Position numbers and translations under genes: made by a program. The notes beneath the pieces were generated by a model that was given only the letters and a program-made list of their open reading frames with translations, did no database searches and was not told the origin of the DNA. From Haloarcula litorea (GTDB lineage Archaea > Halobacteriota > Halobacteria > Halobacteriales > Haloarculaceae): a stretch of DNA of 64,000 bases. The stretch is from assembly GCF_029338195.1 (NCBI RefSeq), contig NZ_CP119780.1, forward strand, positions 1-64,000, given 5' to 3'. Shown here piece by piece: positions 11,061 through 52,070 of this stretch. Positions within the stretch are counted from its first letter, which is position 1. Every line of letters starts with the position of its first letter.

Positions 11061-12359
11061 CTACTCGGGAGCGAACGAGGCGGTCCCGTCCTCGAAGACG
11101 ACGCGCTCCCGGTCGAGAACCGTCGCGTCCGCCGGGAGTTCCTCGACCAGCGGGGCCGAGACGCGCAGCTCTCCGAGGTCCTCCGTGTTCCGGATCCACG
11201 CGATCCGAGCCGTCTCGGGGTCGTAACCGCCCAGCGCCGCCAGCGCCGTCCGCAGGGCGAACTCGTCGTCGGGGGCGACCACGGGGAGCTTGGCCTTCGC
11301 GAGCGAGCCGCTCGTGAGCACGTTCGCGTAGGTCGTCCCGAGATCGAGCTGTTCGACCGCTCGCTCCCGGGTGAGGTCCGCCAGCCCGATGCCGGTGCCG
11401 TTGCCCTTCGTCGCCTCGGTCAGCCCGCGGGCGTACACGAGGTCGATGTCGGGCGTCTCGGGGTCGGGCGCGTTGAGGACCCGGTACCGCCCGATCACGT
11501 TCGTGTCCATCCCGGCCCCGGAGATCTCCTTGCCGAGTTCGTCGACGACCAGCAGGTCCAGATCCGGCACCGGGAGCGTCGCCATCTCCTCGTCGGCCCG
11601 GTCGAGCAGGGCCGGCTCGCGGTCCAGGAACGAGTCGGCGGGGACGCCCTCGACGTGGGCGATCTCCTCGTGGAAGTTCTCGACCAGCACGATCCCGCCG
11701 AGCAGCGGCGTCTCCGATCGGATCACGTCCAGTGCGGGCGTGAGCGTCTCGACGTACCCCTCCTCGATTGCGGTCGAGTGGAACGTCTTCGCGCCCCGCT
11801 GCTTGCCGAGGCCGACGACGGTCATCTTCGTCAGGCCGCTCTCGACGGGACCGGTGAAGTTCGTGTGGGCCTTGACGCGGTTCACGACGATGACGGCGTC
11901 GGCCGCTATCGCGGCCGTCGAGACGTGGACCGGCATCTCGGTGTCGCCGACGGTCACCGTCGCCAGTCGCTCGGTGTCCATCCGGGCGTCGATCGGCGCG
12001 CCGACCCGCTCCTCGGTGATGCCGACGGAGGCCAGCACCTCGCGCTGTCCCGCCGCCGTCGCCCCGCCGTGGCTCCCCATCGCCGGGACGAGCACCGGGT
12101 CGAGGCCGCGCTCGGTCAGCCCGTCGACGACGGCCGCCGTCACGTCGTCGATCCGGTGGATGCCGCGGCTCCCGACGCCGACGGCGACGGTCGCGCCCTC
12201 GTCGAGTGCCCCGAGGGGGAGGGCGTCGAGTTCGGCCTGGGCCGTCGCTTCGAGGTTCGTGACAGTCTCAGCCGGCGGGTCGTACCGGACCCGTGCGAAC
12301 GTCGGGAGCGGCCTGGGATCGATGAGGTCGTCCACCTCGCTCCGGTCGGGGATGTCCAT
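11061..12359 (-). CDS. LarA-like (DUF2088, lactate-racemase homologue) protein
   Basis: The 432-residue protein resembles the LarA family of nickel-pincer-dependent alpha-hydroxyacid racemases/epimerases. Seen in order are VGVGSRGIHRIDD, VPAMGSHGGAT, VVNRVKAHTNF and SGLTKMTVVGLGK, holding candidate His and Lys active-site residues. The family includes racemases for lactate, malate and longer hydroxy acids, and sugar-acid epimerases. I start at ATG 12359; an in-frame start at 12383 is possible. It heads the minus-strand operon followed by SDR, cupin and FAH, and is divergent from an enolase-superfamily dehydratase. Epimerising a hydroxy acid before dehydration fits the context. No LarB, LarC or LarE cofactor genes are in the window. 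Confidence 0.7.
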   Translation of the reverse strand: MDIPDRSEVDDLIDPRPLPTFARVRYDPPAETVTNLEATAQAELDALPLGALDEGATVAVGVGSRGIHRIDDVTAAVVDGLTERGLDPVLVPAMGSHGGATAAGQREVLASVGITEERVGAPIDARMDTERLATVTVGDTEMPVHVSTAAIAADAVIVVNRVKAHTNFTGPVESGLTKMTVVGLGKQRGAKTFHSTAIEEGYVETLTPALDVIRSETPLLGGIVLVENFHEEIAHVEGVPADSFLDREPALLDRADEEMATLPVPDLDLLVVDELGKEISGAGMDTNVIGRYRVLNAPDPETPDIDLVYARGLTEATKGNGTGIGLADLTRERAVEQLDLGTTYANVLTSGSLAKAKLPVVAPDDEFALRTALAALGGYDPETARIAWIRNTEDLGELRVSAPLVEELPADATVLDRERVVFEDGTASFAPE

Positions 12360-12383
12360 ACCGGAGGGTGTACGAGCCCCCAC

Positions 12384-12451: not shown

Positions 12452-13556
12452 ATGGAGATCGCTGCGGTCGAGTCGTTCCCGATAGAGATACCCCTGGAGT
12501 CCCCGGTGTCGTTCTCGAACCGGACGCTCACCTTCCGCGACCACGCGGTGACCCGCGTCAGGACCGAGAGCGGGCTGGAGGGCGTCGGCTACTCGCTGGG
12601 CTACGAGACGGCCCCGCTGATCGCCGACGCGGTCGAGTCCCGGCTCGCGCCGGTCGTCGAGGGCGAGGACCCCCGCGACACCGCGCGGCTCTGGGAGGAG
12701 ATGTACGAGGGCAACGTCCAGGTCGGCCGGCACGGGCTGTTCCTGCGGGCCATCTCCACGGTGGATATGGCGCTGTGGGACATCACGGCCAAGGCCGCGG
12801 GCCAGCCGCTGCACAAGCTGCTCGGCGGCTACGCGGAGTCGGTGCCGTCCTACGCCAGCGGCGGCTACTACCGCGACGACAAGGGCCACGAGGGGCTGCG
12901 CGCGGAGGTCAGCCGGTACCTCGACGAGGGCCACGACACGGTCAAGATGAAGGTCGGCCGTCGCTCCGTCGACGAGGAGGTCGACCGCGTGGCCGCCGTC
13001 CGCGACGAGATCGGCGACGACCGGACGCTCCTGCTGGACGCCAACGGCGTCTGGTCGTCGACGACCGAGGCCGTCCGGGCCTGCCGGGCCTTCGAGCCGT
13101 ACGACCCCTACTTCATCGAGGAGCCGGTGATGATCGACCGGGTCGAGACGATGGCCGAGGTCAACGACGCCCTCTCCTACCCGGTCGCGACCGGCGAACT
13201 GGAGGACGCGCCACAACTTCGCCCGGCTCCACGACACCGGGGCGGCGACCGTCCTCCAGCCGGACGTCACCGTCTGTGGCGGGATCACGGAGTGGCTCCG
13301 CATCGCCAACCACGCCGCCGCCTACGACGTCCCCATCGCGCCCCACTACAACTGGAACATCCACACGTCGCTGTTGGGTGCGATCGAGAACGGCCTGTTC
13401 ATCGAGTACTTCTACCGGGACGTGGACGTGAAGGTGTTCGACGACGTGGTCGTCGACCCGGTCGAACCCGACGATAGCGGACGGATCCCGCTCCCCGACG
13501 AGCCGGGCCACGGCGTACAGCTAGACGAAGCCGCACTCCAGGAGTTCAGCAAATGA
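12452..13556 (+). CDS. Mandelate racemase/muconate lactonizing enzyme family dehydratase (one apparent frameshift at 13208-13211)
   Basis: A ~368-residue enolase-superfamily protein, probably a sugar-acid dehydratase or epimerase in the cytoplasm. The N-terminal capping domain is followed by the barrel with K165-x-K167 (VKMK), metal ligands Asp196 (DANGVW), Glu223 (IEEP) and a Glu in ATGE, and a His in PHYNWNIH. These positions match mandelate racemase closely. The frame breaks at 13208-13211: GGACGCGCCAC needs one more CG, giving GELEDARHNFARLHD. The start ATG at 12452 has a TATA box 27 bp upstream. The stop overlaps the next dehydratase start (ATGA). The substrate is unknown. Confidence 0.85.
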
Positions 13557-14768
13557 GAGACTATTCCGACCACATCGACACGCGCGACCCCGAGCGAGAC
13601 GTACAGATCACCGACATCACGACCGCCGTCGTCGAGGGCAACTTCGAGTGGAACCTCATCAAGGTCGAGACCGACGCCGGCGTGACCGGCATCGGCGAGT
13701 CCTACCGGGGCGGTGGCGTCCCGGAACTCGTCGAGTACACGAAGCGGTTCCTGCTCGGCGAGAACCCGCTGGACGTCGAACGGCTCGTCCGGTACATCGT
13801 CCAGGAGATGTCCGGCCACGGTGGCACCACCGGGAAAGTCGTCACCGCCGCCTCGGGCATCGAGGTGGCGCTGTGGGACGCCGCCGGCAAGATCCTCGAC
13901 CTCCCGGTCTACCAGCTGCTGGGCTCGAAATACCGGGACCAGGTGCGCATCTACTGTGACTGTCACGCCGGCGAGGCCTACGAGGTCGAGGACGGCGCGA
14001 CGGCCTACGCCGACGCCGAGGCGTACTCCCCGGAGGCGTACGCCGCCGAGGCCGCCCGCGTCACGGACGGGCTTCAGCGCGCTGAAGTTCGACCTCGACC
14101 TGCCGGCGGACAACGACCCGGACCCGTACAACGGCCGGCTGACCAACGAGGCCATCGAGGAGAAACGCGAGATCGTCGCCGCGGTGCGCGACGAGATCGG
14201 CTACGACGTCGACCTCGCCTTCGACTGTCACTGGGACTACTCCGTCGAGAGCGCCAAGCGGTTGGCCCACGAACTGGAGGAGTTCAAGCTGATGTGGCTC
14301 GAGGACCTCGTCCCGCCGGAGAACATAGACGCCCAGATCGAGGTGACACAGGACACCCGCACCCCGGTCGCCACCGGCGAGAACCGGTTCCGCGTGTTCG
14401 AACTGAGCGAGCTGGTCTACGAACACGGGGTCGACATCATCACCCCGGACCCGACCACCGTCGGGGGCCTGGCCGAGACGATGCGGGTCGCCGACCGGGC
14501 CGAGGAGAACTACATGCCCGTCTCGCCGCACAACGTCTGCAGCCCCGTCGGGACGATGGCCTGTGTCCACCTCGGTGCGGCCGTCCCGAACTTCGACGTG
14601 CTGGAGTACCACGCGCTGGAGGTCGACTGGTGGGACGACCTGCTCGCCCGGGACGAACCGCTCATCCAGGACGGCTACATCGAGGTCCCCGAGGAGCCGG
14701 GCCTGGGGATCGAACTCGACGAGTCCGTCGTCGAGGAGCACCTGCTCGACGGGACCAGCGGGTTCTGA
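13553..14768 (+). CDS. Galactonate-dehydratase-like enolase-superfamily enzyme (one apparent frameshift at 14069-14071)
   Basis: A ~404-residue member of the mandelate racemase subgroup, closest in pattern to D-galactonate/gluconate-type dehydratases. It has a Lys in SALKFDLD (about K178), Asp224 and His226 in FDCHW, WLEDLVPPEN, VATGENRF and the C-terminal SPHNVCSPVG. Enzymes of this group dehydrate aldonic acids to 2-keto-3-deoxy acids. The frame breaks in a GGG run at 14069-14071: removing one G (or adding two) joins ARVTDG to FSALKFD. It is translationally coupled to the preceding dehydratase. Two dehydratases in one operon could act on two epimeric acids, or one may be a racemase. Confidence 0.86.
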
Positions 14769-14773
14769 GACGC

Positions 14774-14815
14774 GTTCCCACTGACCGGGAACACGGTGGT
14801 CCCATTTTGGTAGTC
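14774..14815 (+). promoter_or_regulatory. Inverted repeat GTTCCC-N7-GGGAAC and TATA before glutaryl-CoA dehydrogenase
   Basis: A perfect 6-bp inverted repeat with 7-bp spacer lies at 14774-14792, just after the dehydratase stop. The TATA-like cattttgg follows at 14808-14815, and the ATG at 14834. It could be an operator for the dehydrogenase or the hairpin of a terminator for the dehydratase operon. There is no T-tract directly after the repeat, which favours an operator. Confidence 0.4.
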
Positions 14816-14833
14816 GAGAGAGCAGAGACGCGT

Positions 14834-15993
14834 ATGCTCGACTACTTCGACCTGGAGGCGTCGCTGTCACAGGAGGAACGGCTCGTCCTCGACTCGGCCC
14901 GGGAGTTCGTCGACGCGGAGATCGAAGACCCCGGCCGGCACTGGCTCGACGGAACCTTCCCGACGGAGCTCGTCACGAAGATGGGAGAGATGGGGTTCTA
15001 CGCGCCGAACCTGGACGGCTACGGCCTCCCGAACCTCAGCGAGCGGGCGTACGGGCTCGTGATGCAGGAGTTGGAGGCCTGTGACTCGGGGCTGCGGTCG
15101 ATGGCGTCGGTCCAGGGGGCGCTCGTGATGTACCCGATCCACGCCTACGGGAGCGAGACACAGAGAGACGAGTGGCTCCCGGCGCTGGCGAGCGGCGAGG
15201 CGGTCGGCTGTTTCGGGCTGACGGAGCCGGAACACGGCTCGAATCCGTCGGCGATGGAGACCAGCGCCGAACGGGACGGCGACGGGTTCGTTCTGAACGG
15301 GTCGAAGACGTGGATCACGAACTCGCCGATCGCGGACGTCGCCGTGGTGTGGGCTCGGGACCTGAGCAGCGAGGGGACCCGGTCCGTGGCTTCCTCGTCG
15401 AGACCGACCGCGACGGCGTCACGACCAACGAGATCGAGGAGAAGCTCTCGCTCCGGATGTCGATCACCGGCGAGATCGGACTGAACGACGTCTACGTTCC
15501 GGAGTCGAACCGTCTGCCGGGCGTCGAGGGGATGAAGGGGCCGCTGTCCTGTCTCACGCAGGCCCGGTACGGGATCGCCTGGGGCGCGGTCGGTGCTGCC
15601 CGGAACTGCTTCGAGACGGCCCGCGAGTACGCCACCGAGCGCGAGCAGTTCGGCGGTCCGATCGGGCGGTTCCAGCTCCAGCAGGAGAAGCTCGCGGAGA
15701 TGGCCACCCAGATCACGCTCGCGCAGTTGCTCGCCCACCGACTCGCCGACCTGAAGGAGGCCGGCGACCTGCGGCCGCAACACGTCTCGATGGCCAAGCG
15801 AAACAACGTCAGGATGGCACGGGACCAGTCCCGGATCGCGCGGGAGATGCTCGGCGGGAACGGCATCACGGCCGACTACTCCCCGATGCGACACATGGCG
15901 AACATGGAGACGGTGTACACCTACGAGGGGACCCACGACATCCACACGCTGGTGCTGGGCGAGGACCTCACCGGTATCGCGGCCTACCAGTGA
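14834..15993 (+). CDS. Glutaryl-CoA dehydrogenase-like acyl-CoA dehydrogenase (one apparent frameshift near 15384)
   Basis: Rejoined, a ~386-residue flavoprotein of the acyl-CoA dehydrogenase family. The match is to glutaryl-CoA dehydrogenase, which oxidatively decarboxylates glutaryl-CoA to crotonyl-CoA. Evidence is the CDSGLRSMASVQ segment, GCFGLTEPEHGSNPS and KTWITNSPIADV in the FAD domain, and the C-terminal YTYEGTHDIHTLVLGEDLTGI with the catalytic Glu. The frame slips near 15384-15385 (TCCGTGGC needs one more C), joining GTRS to RGFLVET. It converges on the D-2-hydroxyacid dehydrogenase. Its place in a sugar-acid island is unexpected, but the enoyl-CoA hydratase and CoA-transferase in the window could serve the same acyl-CoA route. 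Confidence 0.85.
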
Positions 15994-17020: not shown

Positions 17021-18273
17021 TCACGCGCCGTCGACGCGGATCGGCGGTGCCGCGCTCATCAGGAACAGGCAGACCACACCGACGGCGACGCCGACGACGG
17101 CCGTCGTGGCCCCGACCGCACGGACGGCCGGGACGAACCCGAGCCGCGGGGCGGCAACCGCGATCGCACCGCCCATCGCGATGGGCGTGACCGTCGCCGC
17201 GGCGCGCCCGCTCCCCTCACCGATGCTCACCAGCCCGCCGCGGTACGCCGGCGGCGCGACGTCGGTGACGATGCTCCGGTACAGCGACAGCGTGATGCCG
17301 AAGCCGACGCCCATCACCACGACACCGACGGTCGCGACCGCCAGCGAACCCGCGAGGAAGACCGTCGTCAGACCGACGGCCATCGCGACGTTGGTCGTGA
17401 CGAGCGGGTAGAGTCGCCGCTCGAACCGCGCCGTGAGACGACCGGCCTGGGTCGCCGCGAGCGCGTAGCTGGTACTGGCCACCGCGGCGAGGAGGCCGGC
17501 CGCGGCGGGCGTGCGACCGAGGACGTCGACGACCACGATGGAGTTGTACGTGAGGAAGCCCAGCCACACGAGCGTCCCGGACCCCCGAGCGACGACGATG
17601 GTCCACGCCCGGCGGTGGCTGACGACGGCCCAGAGGTCGGTCAGCTGTTCCAGGACGGCCACCTCCGACTCGGCCTCGTCGGTCGCGTGGACGGGCTCCT
17701 CGAACCACCGGTACACGACCAGTGCGATCGGGAACGCGATCGCGTACAGCAGGAACGGGTACTGCCAGCCGACACCGACGAGGACCCCCGCGGCGAGCGG
17801 GAACACCGTCTGTGCGACCCCGGAGCCCGTGAACCGGAGGCCCTGTGCCGTCGCCTCCTTCGTCCCGGAGTAGAGGTCCCCCAGGCTCGTGATGATGATC
17901 GGCGTGAGCGCCGCGAACCCGATCCCCTGGCAGAACCGGAGCGCGAGGGCGACCCGGAACTCCCCGACGAACGCGATCGCGGTCCCGGTCGCCCCGAACC
18001 ACAGGAGCCCGAACAGGATGACCGGACGTCGGCCGTATCGGTCGGCGAGGAACCCCGTCACCGGGATGATGAACACCGCCGGGGCGGTGAACGCCGACAT
18101 CATCAGTCCGACGGTCGCGGGCGTCGCACCGAGGGGTCGACGAGCGAGTCCAGGACGGGCGACATCAGCGCCGTCCCCAGTGGCGGAAGCATGTTCGTCA
18201 GGAACAGCAACTGGAACGAGCGTTCCCGAACGATGTCCGTATCCGACCCCGCGATCGACGAGAGGGATGCCAC
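17021..18273 (-). CDS. MFS transporter (one apparent frameshift at 18133-18136)
   Basis: A ~417-residue, 12-helix major facilitator superfamily permease. The family motif A is seen as GFLADRYGRRPV between helices 2 and 3. The frame breaks after the first helix at a G4/C4 run (18133-18136) one base short; restoring it joins SLVDP to LGATPATVGLMMSAF. I place the start at GTG 18273, because minus-strand ccagttttaat (18298-18308) lies about 27 bp upstream; an ATG at 18324 in the same frame would sit upstream of that box. The gene is followed by the 2-hydroxyacid dehydrogenase and is divergent from the IclR regulator, so it probably imports the inducing acid. Confidence 0.82.
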
Positions 18274-18297: not shown

Positions 18298-18308
18298 ATT
18301 AAAACTGG
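18298..18308 (-). promoter_or_regulatory. TATA element of MFS/2-hydroxyacid dehydrogenase operon
   Basis: Minus-strand ccagttttaat is centred about 27-30 bp before the proposed GTG start at 18273. The same core, ccagtttta, recurs in the divergent iclR promoter at 18399-18407. This suggests that both promoters share a TATA/BRE context or a regulator contact. Confidence 0.5.
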
Positions 18309-18382: not shown

Positions 18383-18408
18383 GTTCGAACTGATCGAACC
18401 AGTTTTAC
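18383..18408 (+). promoter_or_regulatory. iclR promoter: GTTCGA-N5-TCGAAC operator abutting TATA box
   Basis: The perfect inverted repeat GTTCGA-ACTGA-TCGAAC occupies 18383-18399 and abuts the TATA element agttttac at 18401-18408, about 27 bp before the iclR ATG at 18432. Binding there would block TFB/TBP, so autorepression is a natural inference. The same 17-bp architecture recurs downstream at 19272-19288 and 19477-19493. Confidence 0.6.
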
Positions 18409-18431
18409 CGCCGGCCCATCTTGGTTGGCGT

Positions 18432-19205
18432 ATGGCACAGGGAACGAACGAACAATCGGACTCGGTCCAGACCGCGCGAACGATGTTCGACGTGGTCTGT
18501 TGCATCAAGAACGGGAGCGGGATGACGCTGACCGAGATCGTGACCGAACTCGACTACGCGAAGAGCACGGTACACCGGCATCTGCGAACGCTAGAGGAAC
18601 TCGGGTACGTCGTACAACGGGACGACGGCTACCACGTCGGGCTCCGGTTCCTCGACATCGGAGTGACCGCTCGGAACAGCTACGACGGGTACAAACTCAT
18701 CCGGAACAAGGTCGAAGAGATCGCCGACGAGACCGGGGAGCGCGCGCAGTTTTTCGTCGAGGAACACGCCGAGGCGGTGTATCTCGCACGGTCGGTCGGC
18801 GAACAGGCAGTCCACACGGACCCCGGAATCGGGAGCCGGATCCCGCTCTACGCGGCCTCCGCGGGGAAGGCCATCCTGGCGGAACTCCCCGAGGACGAGC
18901 TGTTCGAAATGATCGAACGAATGGAGTTCGAACCGATGACGGAGTACACGATCACGGACCCGGACGAGCTGATGGCGGAACTGGCGGAGATCCGCGACCG
19001 GGGCTACAGCTTCAACCGCGAAGAGTCGTTACAGGGGACACACGCGGTCGGCGTCGCCATCTGCGATGAACAGGGCGAGGTCATCGGCGGGCTGAGCGTC
19101 ACCGGGCCGTCCCACCGACTGAAGGGCGAGCGGTTCACCGAGGAGCTGCCGGACCTGCTGTTGGGTGCCGCGAACGAACTCGAACTCAACATCGCTCACT
19201 CGTAG
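18432..19205 (+). CDS. IclR-family transcriptional regulator
   Basis: A 257-residue regulator with an N-terminal winged helix (LTEIVTELDYAKSTVHRHLRTLEELGYV, residues about 33-61) and a C-terminal IclR ligand domain (PLYAASAGKAILAELP, GYSFNREESLQG, GLSVTGPSHRL). Members bind small acids or sugars and repress or activate nearby catabolic genes. ATG 18432 is preferred over the longer open frame because a TATA box lies 27 bp upstream. It is divergent from the MFS/hydroxyacid dehydrogenase operon. An exact inverted repeat abuts its own TATA box, two more copies lie 3' of the gene, and one lies inside it (18902-18918). Confidence 0.92.
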   Translation: MAQGTNEQSDSVQTARTMFDVVCCIKNGSGMTLTEIVTELDYAKSTVHRHLRTLEELGYVVQRDDGYHVGLRFLDIGVTARNSYDGYKLIRNKVEEIADETGERAQFFVEEHAEAVYLARSVGEQAVHTDPGIGSRIPLYAASAGKAILAELPEDELFEMIERMEFEPMTEYTITDPDELMAELAEIRDRGYSFNREESLQGTHAVGVAICDEQGEVIGGLSVTGPSHRLKGERFTEELPDLLLGAANELELNIAHS

Positions 19206-19271
19206 CGAGCCGGACCCGCCGTCTTCCCCACCGTCCGGGGTCGCTCGCTGTCCGACGAGACCGTACGTCGA

Positions 19272-19288
19272 GTTCGAGAGCGTCGAAC
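19272..19288. promoter_or_regulatory. Operator-like inverted repeat GTTCGA-GAGCG-TCGAAC
   Basis: A perfect 6-bp inverted repeat with a 5-bp spacer lies 67 bp after the iclR stop codon. It is identical in architecture to the repeat at the iclR promoter. It is seen directly; binding by the adjacent IclR protein is inferred. Confidence 0.5.
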
Positions 19289-19476
19289 TTTGATGGTCAG
19301 GGCACTCGTCTCCCACGTCGTGCCGGTAGAGCGGCGTCTGTTCGGGTAGAGCGTCGTGTGAGGTGGCGACGCCGCGCGTCCGCAGCCGTTTCGTTCGTCG
19401 GAACCGGAGCTAAAAGTAGTGTGTTCGTCCGCCCTCAGTGACGGACTTCGCCCGGGCCGTGGTCCGGACAGCTCTT

Positions 19477-19493
19477 GTTCGACGTTGTCGAAC
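19477..19493. promoter_or_regulatory. Operator-like inverted repeat GTTCGA-CGTTG-TCGAAC
   Basis: A perfect inverted repeat, extendable to 7-bp arms with a 3-bp spacer, lies about 330 bp before the SMC-like gene start. Same architecture as the repeats at 18383 and 19272. Confidence 0.5.
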
Positions 19494-19822
19494 TATATGT
19501 CATCATCGTTTGTACACCTCGGGTACGGTCGTCACCGGTCGCGCGAGCGAACGAGCGGCGAAGCGATTCCGGGGCGGCGGGATCGGAGACTACCGGCGTC
19601 GCGCTGAGGACGACGCCCCGACGCTTCGGCGGGCACCCGGACCGGCCGGGAGCGTGTCCCGAGGGAACGCGCCGTCGCGGTCGGGGACCGTGCGGCGATC
19701 GAACCGCGCCGGTGGAGTCGAAATCACAACGGTACTTTTGTTACTCTTTCCGACCGGCGGAGGCAGAGAGTGGGTGGATAGGTACATTTATACACGCCCA
19801 GTCTGACTCTTTGGGTATACTG

Positions 19823-21772
19823 ATGTCGACTCCAACGCAAAAGTCTGCTGTCGCACACATCGACGTGGAGAACATCGGCGGGATCGCGGAGACCGCACTC
19901 GATATCCCACCCGGCGTGACCGTCCTCTCGGGCGAGAACGCGACGAACCGGACGTCGTTCCTGCAGGCGATCATGGCGGCGATGGGGAGCGACCAGGCCA
20001 CGCTCAAGGGCGACGCCGAGACCGGGCGGGCGTCCCTACGGCTCGGCGAGAGCGAGTACGAGCGGACCCTCGAACGGCAGAACGGCACGGTCGTCCTGGA
20101 CGACGGCGGCTACCTCGACGATCCGACCGTGGCCGACCTCTTCGCGTTCCTCCTCGAGACCAACGAGGCCCGGCAGGCCGTGGCCCGGGACGGGGACCTC
20201 CGGGACCTCATCATGCGACCCATCGACACCGAGTCCCTCAAGTCCGATATCGAACGGCTCGAGGCCGAGAAAGGCGAGATCAACGACCGACTCGCGACCA
20301 TCGAGTCGCGGAAGACCGACCTCCCGGACCTCGAACAACAGCGCAACGAGTACCAGTCGGAGATCGCGGAGAAACGCGAGGAGCTGGCCGAACTGGAGTC
20401 GGAGATCGACGACCACAGCCGTGGCGTCGAGGAGACCCGCCAGGAGCAGGAGGAGCTGGAGAGCAAGCTCCAGGAGCTGCGGTCGACCCGTTCGGAGATC
20501 GAGTCCGTCCGCCGGAAGATCGAGAACCAGCAGCAGTCGATCACCTCGCTCAAGCAGGAGCGCAGCGAGATCGAGGCGGAACTCGACGACCTCCCGGAGA
20601 CGCCGACGGCCGAGCAGTCCGACCTCGACGCCGAGATCCAGCAGCTCCGCGACGACCGACAGCGCCTCAACGGGGAGATCTCGGACCTCCAGAGCCTCAT
20701 CCAGTACAACGAGGAGCGCCTCGATGAGGAGGACTACCAGATGCTCGAGGAGTTCGAGACGGACGACGCCAACGGCTCGGTGACGGACGACCTGCTCTCG
20801 GACACCGACGAGATCGTGTGCTGGACGTGTGGATCGACGGTCGACCGCCAGCAGATCGAGGAGACGATCGATCGGCTCCAGGACCTCCGGAGCGAGAAGG
20901 TCACGGAACTCAACGACATCAAGGATCAGCTCGAAGACCTGAAGGCGGACAAGCGCGACATCGAGCGGCAGCGGGACCGGCGGTCGGAGCTCCAGAGCTC
21001 GCTGGCCCAGGTCGAGGACGAGCTCGACCGCCGGGGGAAACAGATCGACTCGCTCAAGGACCGCCGCGACGAGCTGACCGACGACGTCGAGGAACTCGAA
21101 GCGGAGGTGGACGCGCTCGAGTCCGAGGACTTCGGGGACATCCTCGACCTGCACAAGGAGGCCAACCAGCTCGAGTTCGAGATCGACCAGCTGGAGTCCG
21201 ACCTCGACGAGGTCACCGACGAGATCGAGACGATCGAGGAGATGCTCGACGAGGCGGACGACCTCCGAGCGGAACGCGACCGGCTGGCCGACGAACTGAC
21301 CGAGAAGCGGACCAAGATCGACCAGATCGAGGCCGACGCCGTCGAGCGGTTCAACGATCACGTGGACACGATCCTGGAGATGCTCGACTACGAGAACCTC
21401 GATCGCATCTGGATCGAGCGGCTGGAGAAGACGGTTCGAGAGGGGCGACAGAAGGTCCAACAGACCGCCTTCGAGATCCACGTGGTCCGGACGACGGAGA
21501 ACGGGGCGGCCTACGAGGACACCATCGACCACCTCAGCGAGAGCGAACGGGAGGTGACGGGACTCGTGTTCGCGCTGGCCGGGTATCTGGTCCACGACCT
21601 GCACGAGGAGGTCCCCTTCATGCTGTTGGACTCGCTGGAGGCGATCGACTCCGACCGGATCGCCACCCTCGTAGGGTACTTCGCCGATCACGTCGACTAC
21701 CTCGTCGTCGCGCTCCTCGAGGAGGACGCCGCGGCCCTGCCCGGGGAGTACAACTACGTCACCGATATCTGA
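19823..21772 (+). CDS. sph3: Archaea-specific SMC-related protein (Sph3-like)
   Basis: The 649-residue protein is an SMC/Rad50-type coiled-coil ATPase found in haloarchaea, encoded next to RdfA. The N-terminal head holds the nucleotide loop GENATNRTS (Arg in place of the usual Lys, as I recall for this group). Two long heptad-rich coiled coils (about residues 125-320 and 340-510) flank a zinc-hook-like CWTCG near residue 334. The C-terminal head carries the signature LSESER and Walker B FMLLDSLEAID. ATG 19823 follows a TATA element (catttatac) about 35 bp upstream. In Haloferax the homologous pair is implicated in cell shape; gene symbol and role are transferred from that knowledge. Confidence 0.8.
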   Translation: MSTPTQKSAVAHIDVENIGGIAETALDIPPGVTVLSGENATNRTSFLQAIMAAMGSDQATLKGDAETGRASLRLGESEYERTLERQNGTVVLDDGGYLDDPTVADLFAFLLETNEARQAVARDGDLRDLIMRPIDTESLKSDIERLEAEKGEINDRLATIESRKTDLPDLEQQRNEYQSEIAEKREELAELESEIDDHSRGVEETRQEQEELESKLQELRSTRSEIESVRRKIENQQQSITSLKQERSEIEAELDDLPETPTAEQSDLDAEIQQLRDDRQRLNGEISDLQSLIQYNEERLDEEDYQMLEEFETDDANGSVTDDLLSDTDEIVCWTCGSTVDRQQIEETIDRLQDLRSEKVTELNDIKDQLEDLKADKRDIERQRDRRSELQSSLAQVEDELDRRGKQIDSLKDRRDELTDDVEELEAEVDALESEDFGDILDLHKEANQLEFEIDQLESDLDEVTDEIETIEEMLDEADDLRAERDRLADELTEKRTKIDQIEADAVERFNDHVDTILEMLDYENLDRIWIERLEKTVREGRQKVQQTAFEIHVVRTTENGAAYEDTIDHLSESEREVTGLVFALAGYLVHDLHEEVPFMLLDSLEAIDSDRIATLVGYFADHVDYLVVALLEEDAAALPGEYNYVTDI

Positions 21773-21798
21773 GACCCCCACAACGAGAGATCACAACA

Positions 21799-22416
21799 AT
21801 GTCACAGGGAGAATCCGACCGCCGGTCGAACAAGGTGGCGAGGCTCATCGACGAGTACGAACTGGAGGGGCTCGGGACGGAACTGGAGGCGCGCTGGACC
21901 GACGACGGCGAGGACCGGATGAGCCTCCGCGACCTCGCGGAGTACTTCAACAAGCGGCTCCTGGAGACGGAGCTCATCGAGGCCGGGATGAGTGCGCTCG
22001 ACAGCGAGGTCGACACCACGTACCGGCAACTGACCGACGACGACGTCAGCACGGGCGTCCGCACCGAGACGCGGTCGCGCCTCGAGCAGAACGGGATCGA
22101 CGTCGACGCGCTCGAATCGAACTTCGTCACCTACCAGGCGATCCGGTCGTACCTCCAGAACGTTCGGGGGGCCTCCTACGAGGGGCCGTCCGACGCGGAG
22201 AAGGTCGAGACCGACCAGCAGAGCATCCAGCGGTTGCTGACGCGGACACACACCGTCATCGACCAGCGGGTCGAGGCGCTCCGGGACACGGACCGGCTCG
22301 CGCTCGACGACTTCGAGGTGTTCGTGGACGCACAGGTCCTCTGTCAGGCCTGCGGGACCCAACACTCCATCACCGACCTGCTGGAGCAGGGCGGGTGCGA
22401 GTGCCAGCAGTCCTGA
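21799..22416 (+). CDS. rdfA: Rod-determining factor RdfA homologue
   Basis: A 205-residue protein that begins 26 bp after the SMC-like stop and is surely co-transcribed with it. It matches the haloarchaeal rod-determining factor family by its N-terminus (NKVARLIDEYELEGLGTELEARW), the DRMSLRDLAEYFNKRLLE segment, and a C-terminal zinc-binding cluster (CQACGTQHSI followed by CECQQS). RdfA is needed for rod formation in Haloferax volcanii. How it acts is not known, and partnership with the SMC-like protein is inferred from conserved neighbourhood. No frame problems are seen. Confidence 0.82.
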   Translation: MSQGESDRRSNKVARLIDEYELEGLGTELEARWTDDGEDRMSLRDLAEYFNKRLLETELIEAGMSALDSEVDTTYRQLTDDDVSTGVRTETRSRLEQNGIDVDALESNFVTYQAIRSYLQNVRGASYEGPSDAEKVETDQQSIQRLLTRTHTVIDQRVEALRDTDRLALDDFEVFVDAQVLCQACGTQHSITDLLEQGGCECQQS

Positions 22417-22613: not shown

Positions 22614-22633
22614 TAACACGAGTACGCCTGTTA
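22614..22633. promoter_or_regulatory. Operator-like repeat TAACA-N10-TGTTA (copy 1)
   Basis: The arms TAACA and TGTTA flank a 10-bp spacer, CGAGTACGCC. A second copy with the same arms and spacer start CGAGTA lies at 51948-51967. The rest of the flanking DNA is not similar, so the match is a short conserved element, not a duplication. Confidence 0.5.
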
Positions 22634-50987: not shown

Positions 50988-51058
50988 CGTCCCCCGCGTC
51001 GGGATGGCCGTTCCGGCGTAGTGAACAGAACTAAGGAGGACGGGCTCCTGTCTCGGCT

Positions 51059-51858: not shown

Positions 51859-51907
51859 CGAACGGTCGTTCGATTAGTAAGGACTTGTGTTCTGCTATAC
51901 TGAACAC
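51859..51907. promoter_or_regulatory. Tandem inverted repeats CGAACG-GT-CGTTCG and GTGTTC-N9-GAACAC
   Basis: Two perfect 6-bp inverted repeats lie 14 bp apart in the gap between the IclR and aldolase genes: 51859-51872 and 51887-51907. The second spans a TATA-like ctatact. They are seen directly; regulator binding is inferred. Confidence 0.45.
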
Positions 51908-51947: not shown

Positions 51948-51967
51948 TAACACGAGTAAGTTTGTTA
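51948..51967. promoter_or_regulatory. Operator-like repeat TAACA-N10-TGTTA (copy 2)
   Basis: The arms TAACA and TGTTA flank CGAGTAAGTT; with flanking bases the repeat reads ATAACA/TGTTAT. It overlaps a strong tatataa (51944-51950). It shares the arms and CGAGTA with the copy at 22614-22633. The aldolase start at 52071 is about 100 bp downstream; a weaker TATA (gtttcata, 52041-52048) lies nearer the start. Confidence 0.5.
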
Positions 51968-52070
51968 TTCAACCCGGGTCCTTCGTTCCATCTGTCGGCC
52001 AGAGCGTTCGGCCAGGCCGAACGTGACACTGCTCCCATAGTTTCATACCCGCCCCGCCCGTCGTCTCGGT

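Follow-up and report, generated by a model that had tools for sequence, protein, structure and literature searches.

Four exact copies of a 17-bp palindrome, GTTCGA-N5-TCGAAC, lie before, inside and behind an iclR gene of Haloarcula litorea, and we propose that they are probably operators of the IclR protein encoded between them and make up an autoregulatory array of several sites, one of them intragenic. The sites, which we call O1 to O4, were found in the first 64,000 nucleotides of contig NZ_CP119780.1 (the window, meaning the whole stretch of DNA analysed). An initial annotation had offered them as candidate IclR binding sites, a reading now strengthened by footprints in orthologues, recurrence across the family, covariation between recognition helix and site, and likeness to a published IclR motif. 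On these grounds, IclR very probably binds all four.

The iclR locus

The iclR gene (18432..19205, plus strand) encodes 257 amino acids with profile matches to HTH_IclR and IclR_C; its product scores 133 bits against PF01614 and 48 bits against PF09339, both past the cut-off, which makes it an IclR-family transcription factor, and the solved structures that match it by sequence are IclR-family proteins. Against the nearest NCBIfam model, that of PcaR/PcaU/PobR (TIGR02431), it reaches 161.5 bits, below the cut-off of 284.75, and it is not a member. The predicted promoter operator O1 (GTTCGAACTGATCGAAC, 18383..18399) ends 3 bp before a TATA-like TTTTA on the plus strand (18403..18407), a position read from the sequence. 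About 27 bp separate this box from the ATG, so that the iclR transcript would be leaderless, with a putative start at the gene itself. The predicted intragenic operator O2 (GTTCGAAATGATCGAAC, 18902..18918) lies at +470 of iclR; the predicted operator O3 (19272..19288) follows 66 bp past the stop codon, without an adjoining TATA-like box, and the predicted distal operator O4 occupies 19477..19493. Some 77 bp from O1 on its other side is the TATA-like box (ATTAAAACT as read on the plus strand, 18298..18306) of a divergent MFS transporter gene on the minus strand, a box conserved in three species; the start codon of that gene, read from the sequence, is a GTG near 18273.

Four palindromes in 1.1 kb exceed the background

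The initial annotation placed the exact copies correctly, at 18383, 18902, 19272 and 19477, and was also right about the 617-bp length of the non-coding stretch behind iclR (19206-19822). The pattern was absent from 100 dinucleotide shuffles, and when the gap between GTTCGA and TCGAAC was varied from 0 to 15 nt across the whole window, matches appeared at a gap of 5 only, in four copies. Are four such copies more than haloarchaeal DNA would offer by itself? The annotation had cautioned that both arms are common there, and counts in the genome and its relatives agree for isolated copies: 57 related haloarchaeal genomes hold about 2-21 exact copies each, roughly 2 per Mb, and the chromosome has arm spacings of 2, 8 and 17 no less often than spacing 5, so single copies are background. 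The genome-wide count that it had proposed as a check returned 13 places in the organism's own genome (G000, 3.79 Mb), namely the four of the array, a repeated set of four, and five single chromosomal copies. Since the repeated set (offset 240669 in contig C2) is the terminally redundant end of that contig, the unique copies number nine, with four inside 1.1 kb and five scattered on the chromosome. The count upholds the clustering and leaves the five singles at background level, and the view that three non-coding copies within 1.1 kb are hard to dismiss is borne out by a cluster of four that exceeds it.

That the repeats are a coding or compositional coincidence, GTTCGA and TCGAAC being frequent in GC-rich haloarchaeal DNA, is thus hardly credible here: it would explain the copies found in any related genome and the equal frequency of other spacings on the chromosome, but not four copies in 1.1 kb with a single spacing, three of them non-genic, and for this cluster it is already contradicted by the positions kept in orthologues and the synonymous constraint on O2.

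The layout is conserved across genera

We searched for footprints in 15 distinct iclR orthologues of at least 70% identity, all from one order; because they are related, significance values drawn from them are optimistic. Two, from Haloarcula genomes (G026 and G001), stand at 82% identity, and those at 70-78% come from Halobacterium, Halorubrum, Halogranum and other relatives. An equivalent of O1 with 0-1 arm mismatches lies at -49..-63 from the start in all 15, followed in nearly all by an AT-rich box, and an equivalent of O2 with 0-2 arm mismatches lies within the gene at exactly +470, again in 15 of 15. Equivalents of O3 (at most two arm mismatches) occur at +773..+864 in 13; the Halogranum orthologue has an exact downstream copy at +1140 in place of the O3 position, and no downstream site with up to two arm mismatches was found in the L069 orthologue. 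Both Haloarcula relatives carry all four sites in the same order and at similar distances, with 0-1 mismatches in the arms and mostly altered spacers; their O4 equivalents, at +1081 in G026 and +1082 in G001, have one mismatch each. The loci of more distant proteins retain parts of the plan. At that of the Halophilic archaeon DL31 IclR (63%), the full motif stands unaltered at +470, with GTTC-N9-GAAC at -49 and again at +780; at that of a Haloferax lucentense IclR (44% identity), the full motif is present without mismatch at -50, +809, +910 and +1347. This comparison indicates that selection has maintained, in several genera, the layout of sites before, inside and behind iclR.

Two half-matches, one that many orthologues have at +53 (GTTCGACATCGTCGAAT) and one at +317 (GTTCTTCGTCGAGGAAC), were set aside as probable protein-driven coincidences, as they cover conserved residues and are asymmetric or absent in the window.

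The intragenic site is constrained at the DNA level

The comparative data also indicate that O2 is under selection as DNA, the clearest such constraint of all the sites. When its seven codons were synonymously recoded in the 15 orthologues, 38.3 +/- 3.5 arm mismatches were expected against 11 observed, a value reached in 0 of 5000 draws. Because relatedness inflates this contrast, a second comparison ranked every codon against the rest within the same sequences; alignment codons 161 and 164, which lie in the arms of O2 and vary in amino acid, rank first and second of 251 for low DNA diversity given their amino-acid diversity. Per-base diversity falls to 0.07 in the arms, against 0.31 in the flanks and 0.51 in the spacer. 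All 15 orthologues carry the right arm, TCGAAC, without a single change, even though the residues it helps to encode vary: it completes a codon for I, V, L or F, spells E, and opens a codon for R, L, Q or H. Glutamate is always written GAA (38% GAA in the pool), and serine always TCC. The suggestion that the intragenic copy might be chance is contradicted by its conservation at +470, the recoding null and the two codon ranks.

A family-wide site tracks the recognition helix

The outer part of the palindrome, GTTC-N9-GAAC, recurs before, and often also after, IclR genes of haloarchaea with identities as low as about 40%. Among 63 other haloarchaeal IclR genes, it was present 15-120 bp upstream in 15 of the 22 at >=60% identity and 15 of the 41 at <60%, while any other spacing from 0 to 20 was found upstream of at most 3 genes. 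An unbiased scan of inverted 4-mers placed GTTC at spacing 9 on top in both identity sets, and the same spacing leads downstream (740-1150), at 13 of 22 and 12 of 41 loci. Nine such sites occur in the window, seven of them at its two iclR genes. The second gene, from 51071 on, follows the same plan with inner bases of its own: a predicted promoter site (GTTCCGGCGTAGTGAAC, 51010..51026), a predicted downstream site found in the GTTC-N9-GAAC scan (GTTCTGCTATACTGAAC, 51889..51905) and a predicted distal site (GTTCGGCCAGGCCGAAC, 52006..52022). The match at 14387 was rejected, being coding sequence of an enolase gene that has the same sequence at the same gene in a relative. A point that tells against the operator reading is that the cluster's remaining catabolic operons have no matching site at their promoters.

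The inner bases vary by IclR clade and do so together with the protein. With Arg as the recognition-helix residue that follows STxH/Y, T is never found at site position 13 (42 of 42); with Asn or Ser there, T occupies that position in 11 of 12 cases (P = 6e-5 once identical combinations are collapsed). It is quite improbable, then, that another regulator, one controlling many iclR genes, binds these sites; a single outsider would not track arms that differ across IclR clades and covary with the IclR recognition helix. The motif is testable and belongs to a large, little-mapped group of haloarchaeal regulators, with dozens of IclR-like candidates in each related Haloarcula genome, and the helix residue would predict part of the site.

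The downstream sites appear to belong to iclR

The initial annotation described O3 and O4 as lying upstream of SMC-like and RdfA genes, which is correct as geography. That they are promoter operators of those genes is improbable. In favour, O4 is followed by TATATG in the window and by TATAAATA in G026; against it, the genes that follow vary by lineage, O3 lacks a TATA-like box, and the SMC-related gene has its own near 19787, some 300 bp past O4. The two closest relatives, G026 and G001, have an unrelated gene on the opposite strand beyond their downstream sites, and in several Halorubrum the gene behind them is HtpX-like and also on the opposite strand (neighbour names read from sequence). 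Since the sites are retained where no SMC/RdfA gene follows, they would belong to iclR, and the differing downstream genes, with the separate TATA-like box, make SMC/RdfA probably not targets. What is conserved as a unit is instead iclR, the MFS and 2-hydroxyacid dehydrogenase genes divergent from it and, close by, genes of the enolase superfamily and for acyl-CoA dehydrogenase.

The SMC-related gene is of the ASRP family (671 bits). Such genes stand behind a similar iclR in the window (19712-22416, ASRP with RdfA), on one Halorubrum contig, and perhaps on the DL31 plasmid phalar01 (annotated Spc25-like), with coordinates 10812-12677 in L095 and 9256-11184 in L057; they are apparently independent neighbours of iclR. 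A hidden RNA or small gene behind iclR was considered and rejected: the region has no Rfam match, and no sequence between O3 and O4 is conserved across relatives other than a second palindrome. Bacterial-type promoter and terminator models found no match there either, and say little for an archaeon.

A second palindrome

This second palindrome, P, with the consensus TAACA-N3-GTAC-N3-TGTTA, is present downstream of iclR in most of the closer orthologues and in some distant ones, frequently no more than about 110 bp from O3. At the first iclR locus it is TCACAACGGTACTTTTGTTA (19724..19743), with one mismatch; further copies in the window are at 22614-22633 and at 51948-51967, the latter between the two downstream sites of the second iclR, and contig C2 of G000 has it at 169155, 235359 and 235432. 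In 27 of 32 Haloarcula genomes there are 1-10 copies, whereas the reversed control never occurs. Of 30 loci examined, 14 directly adjoin an IclR gene, on either side, and others adjoin sugar ABC transporters and oxidoreductases (neighbours read from sequence). A literature search found no published description of the motif. P is probably the site of another carbon regulator.

Gene cluster and assembly

Contig C2 represents a circular replicon of about 240.7 kb whose assembly contains indel errors and a redundant terminus: its end (240.68-284.46 kb) repeats its start (1-43.8 kb) at 99.87% identity with 32 gaps. The minus-strand MFS gene is frameshifted at 18140-18160, which looks like a sequencing error because a second copy of the region, differing by one base in a G run, has an open frame and relatives are intact. 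At 13553-15993, the enolase-superfamily and acyl-CoA dehydrogenase genes, separate in relatives, read through each other in frame, possibly another indel error. At 11061-12383 (minus strand) a nickel pincer cofactor-dependent isomerase (NCBIfam group 22, 485 bits; cut-off 400) adjoins galactonate/talarate dehydratase-like enolases, and together they may form an uncharacterised sugar-acid pathway.

A model of the array

What might four sites do for one regulator? O1 lies where TFB and TBP would meet the iclR promoter. It probably sets the level of iclR expression, and it may also govern the divergent MFS/2-hydroxyacid dehydrogenase genes. Because O1 ends 3 bp before TTTTA, a dimer bound there would, judging from position, overlap the BRE, which fits repression (TFB blocked) or activation (TFB recruited); both autoregulation and the direction of control are put forward here as predictions. 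O2 and O3 are unlike promoter operators, as one is mid-gene and the other has no TATA-like box. We suggest that O2 in the gene and O3 and O4 behind it are auxiliary operators, which IclR dimers paired into tetramers would bridge to O1, raising local occupancy and making autoregulation steep and effector-responsive. Bridging is in our judgement the most likely use of the auxiliary sites, held with moderate confidence, and it is the weakest step of the explanation. A fixed loop is not supported by helical phasing: the O2-O3 and O1-O3 distances vary freely among orthologues, and the O1-O2 distance looks phased (P ~0.005), but relatedness and fixed gene positions account for that.

The same free variation of the O3 distance leaves room for a reading in which IclR binds all four sites and O2-O4 act without looping, either as titration sites, an internal sponge buffering free IclR, or as roadblocks to transcription through and past iclR. 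We regard this as unlikely, though a sizeable minority view. In its favour, the long stretch behind iclR that holds O3 and O4 (about 610-830 bp) has no conserved gene, and in Halorubrum, H. lucentense and both Haloarcula relatives the arrangement there is convergent; however, a sponge would give no reason for O2 to keep one position inside the gene, and roadblocks leave sites on both sides of the gene unexplained. Bridged auxiliary operators remain our preferred model. Extending it, we tentatively raise the possibility that haloarchaeal IclRs share a conserved array, with promoter and downstream operators and, in this clade, one within their own codons, which an IclR tetramer would bridge into a repression or activation loop at a TBP/TFB promoter, often beside a second palindrome bound by another regulator. 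Here selection on a predicted intragenic operator can be seen in an archaeon, and silent mutations in a single gene could probe whether far-apart sites cooperate at an archaeal promoter.

Comparison with known systems

A survey of IclR regulators in 320 bacterial genomes gives the motif GKTYCRYW3-4RYGRAMC, with a 17-bp subgroup GTTYCRYW3RYGRAAC; site centres mostly between -20 and -80; common autoregulation; and proteins binding as dimers or tetramers (Suvorova and Gelfand 2021, PMC8222616). The array resembles bacterial group 1, which includes PcaR/PcaU/PobR-type proteins, in length class, GTTC outer arms, promoter position and adjoining regulator gene, and the centre of O1, at -41, falls within the group 1 range of -20 to -80 (PMC8222616). 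Against the bacterial 17-bp consensus (PMC8222616), length, outer arms and the R at position 6 agree, and position 5 is G, not C; related haloarchaeal sites of the form GTTCCG..CGGAAC match it more fully. PcaR-class sites as presented in the survey (PMC8222616) have similar arms but closer spacing, and the tandem sites described there are 18-22 nt apart, whereas the intragenic and downstream copies here are hundreds of bases away.

Closer to home, XacR, GacR, RhcR and MscR are haloarchaeal IclR activators of catabolic genes, shown by deletion mutants, and are likewise encoded beside sugar catabolic genes; no operator for them is given in the open literature examined (PMC11519228). For archaeal or IclR intragenic operators with looping, a search of the open literature gave nothing directly on point; an earlier account of a haloarchaeal IclR motif may exist. 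Multi-operator autoregulation in bacteria, as with lac O1/O2/O3, combines a main promoter operator with one inside coding sequence and one farther off. The array proposed here also has promoter, intragenic and distant sites, but its protein belongs to an unrelated family and its intragenic site lies in the regulator's own gene.
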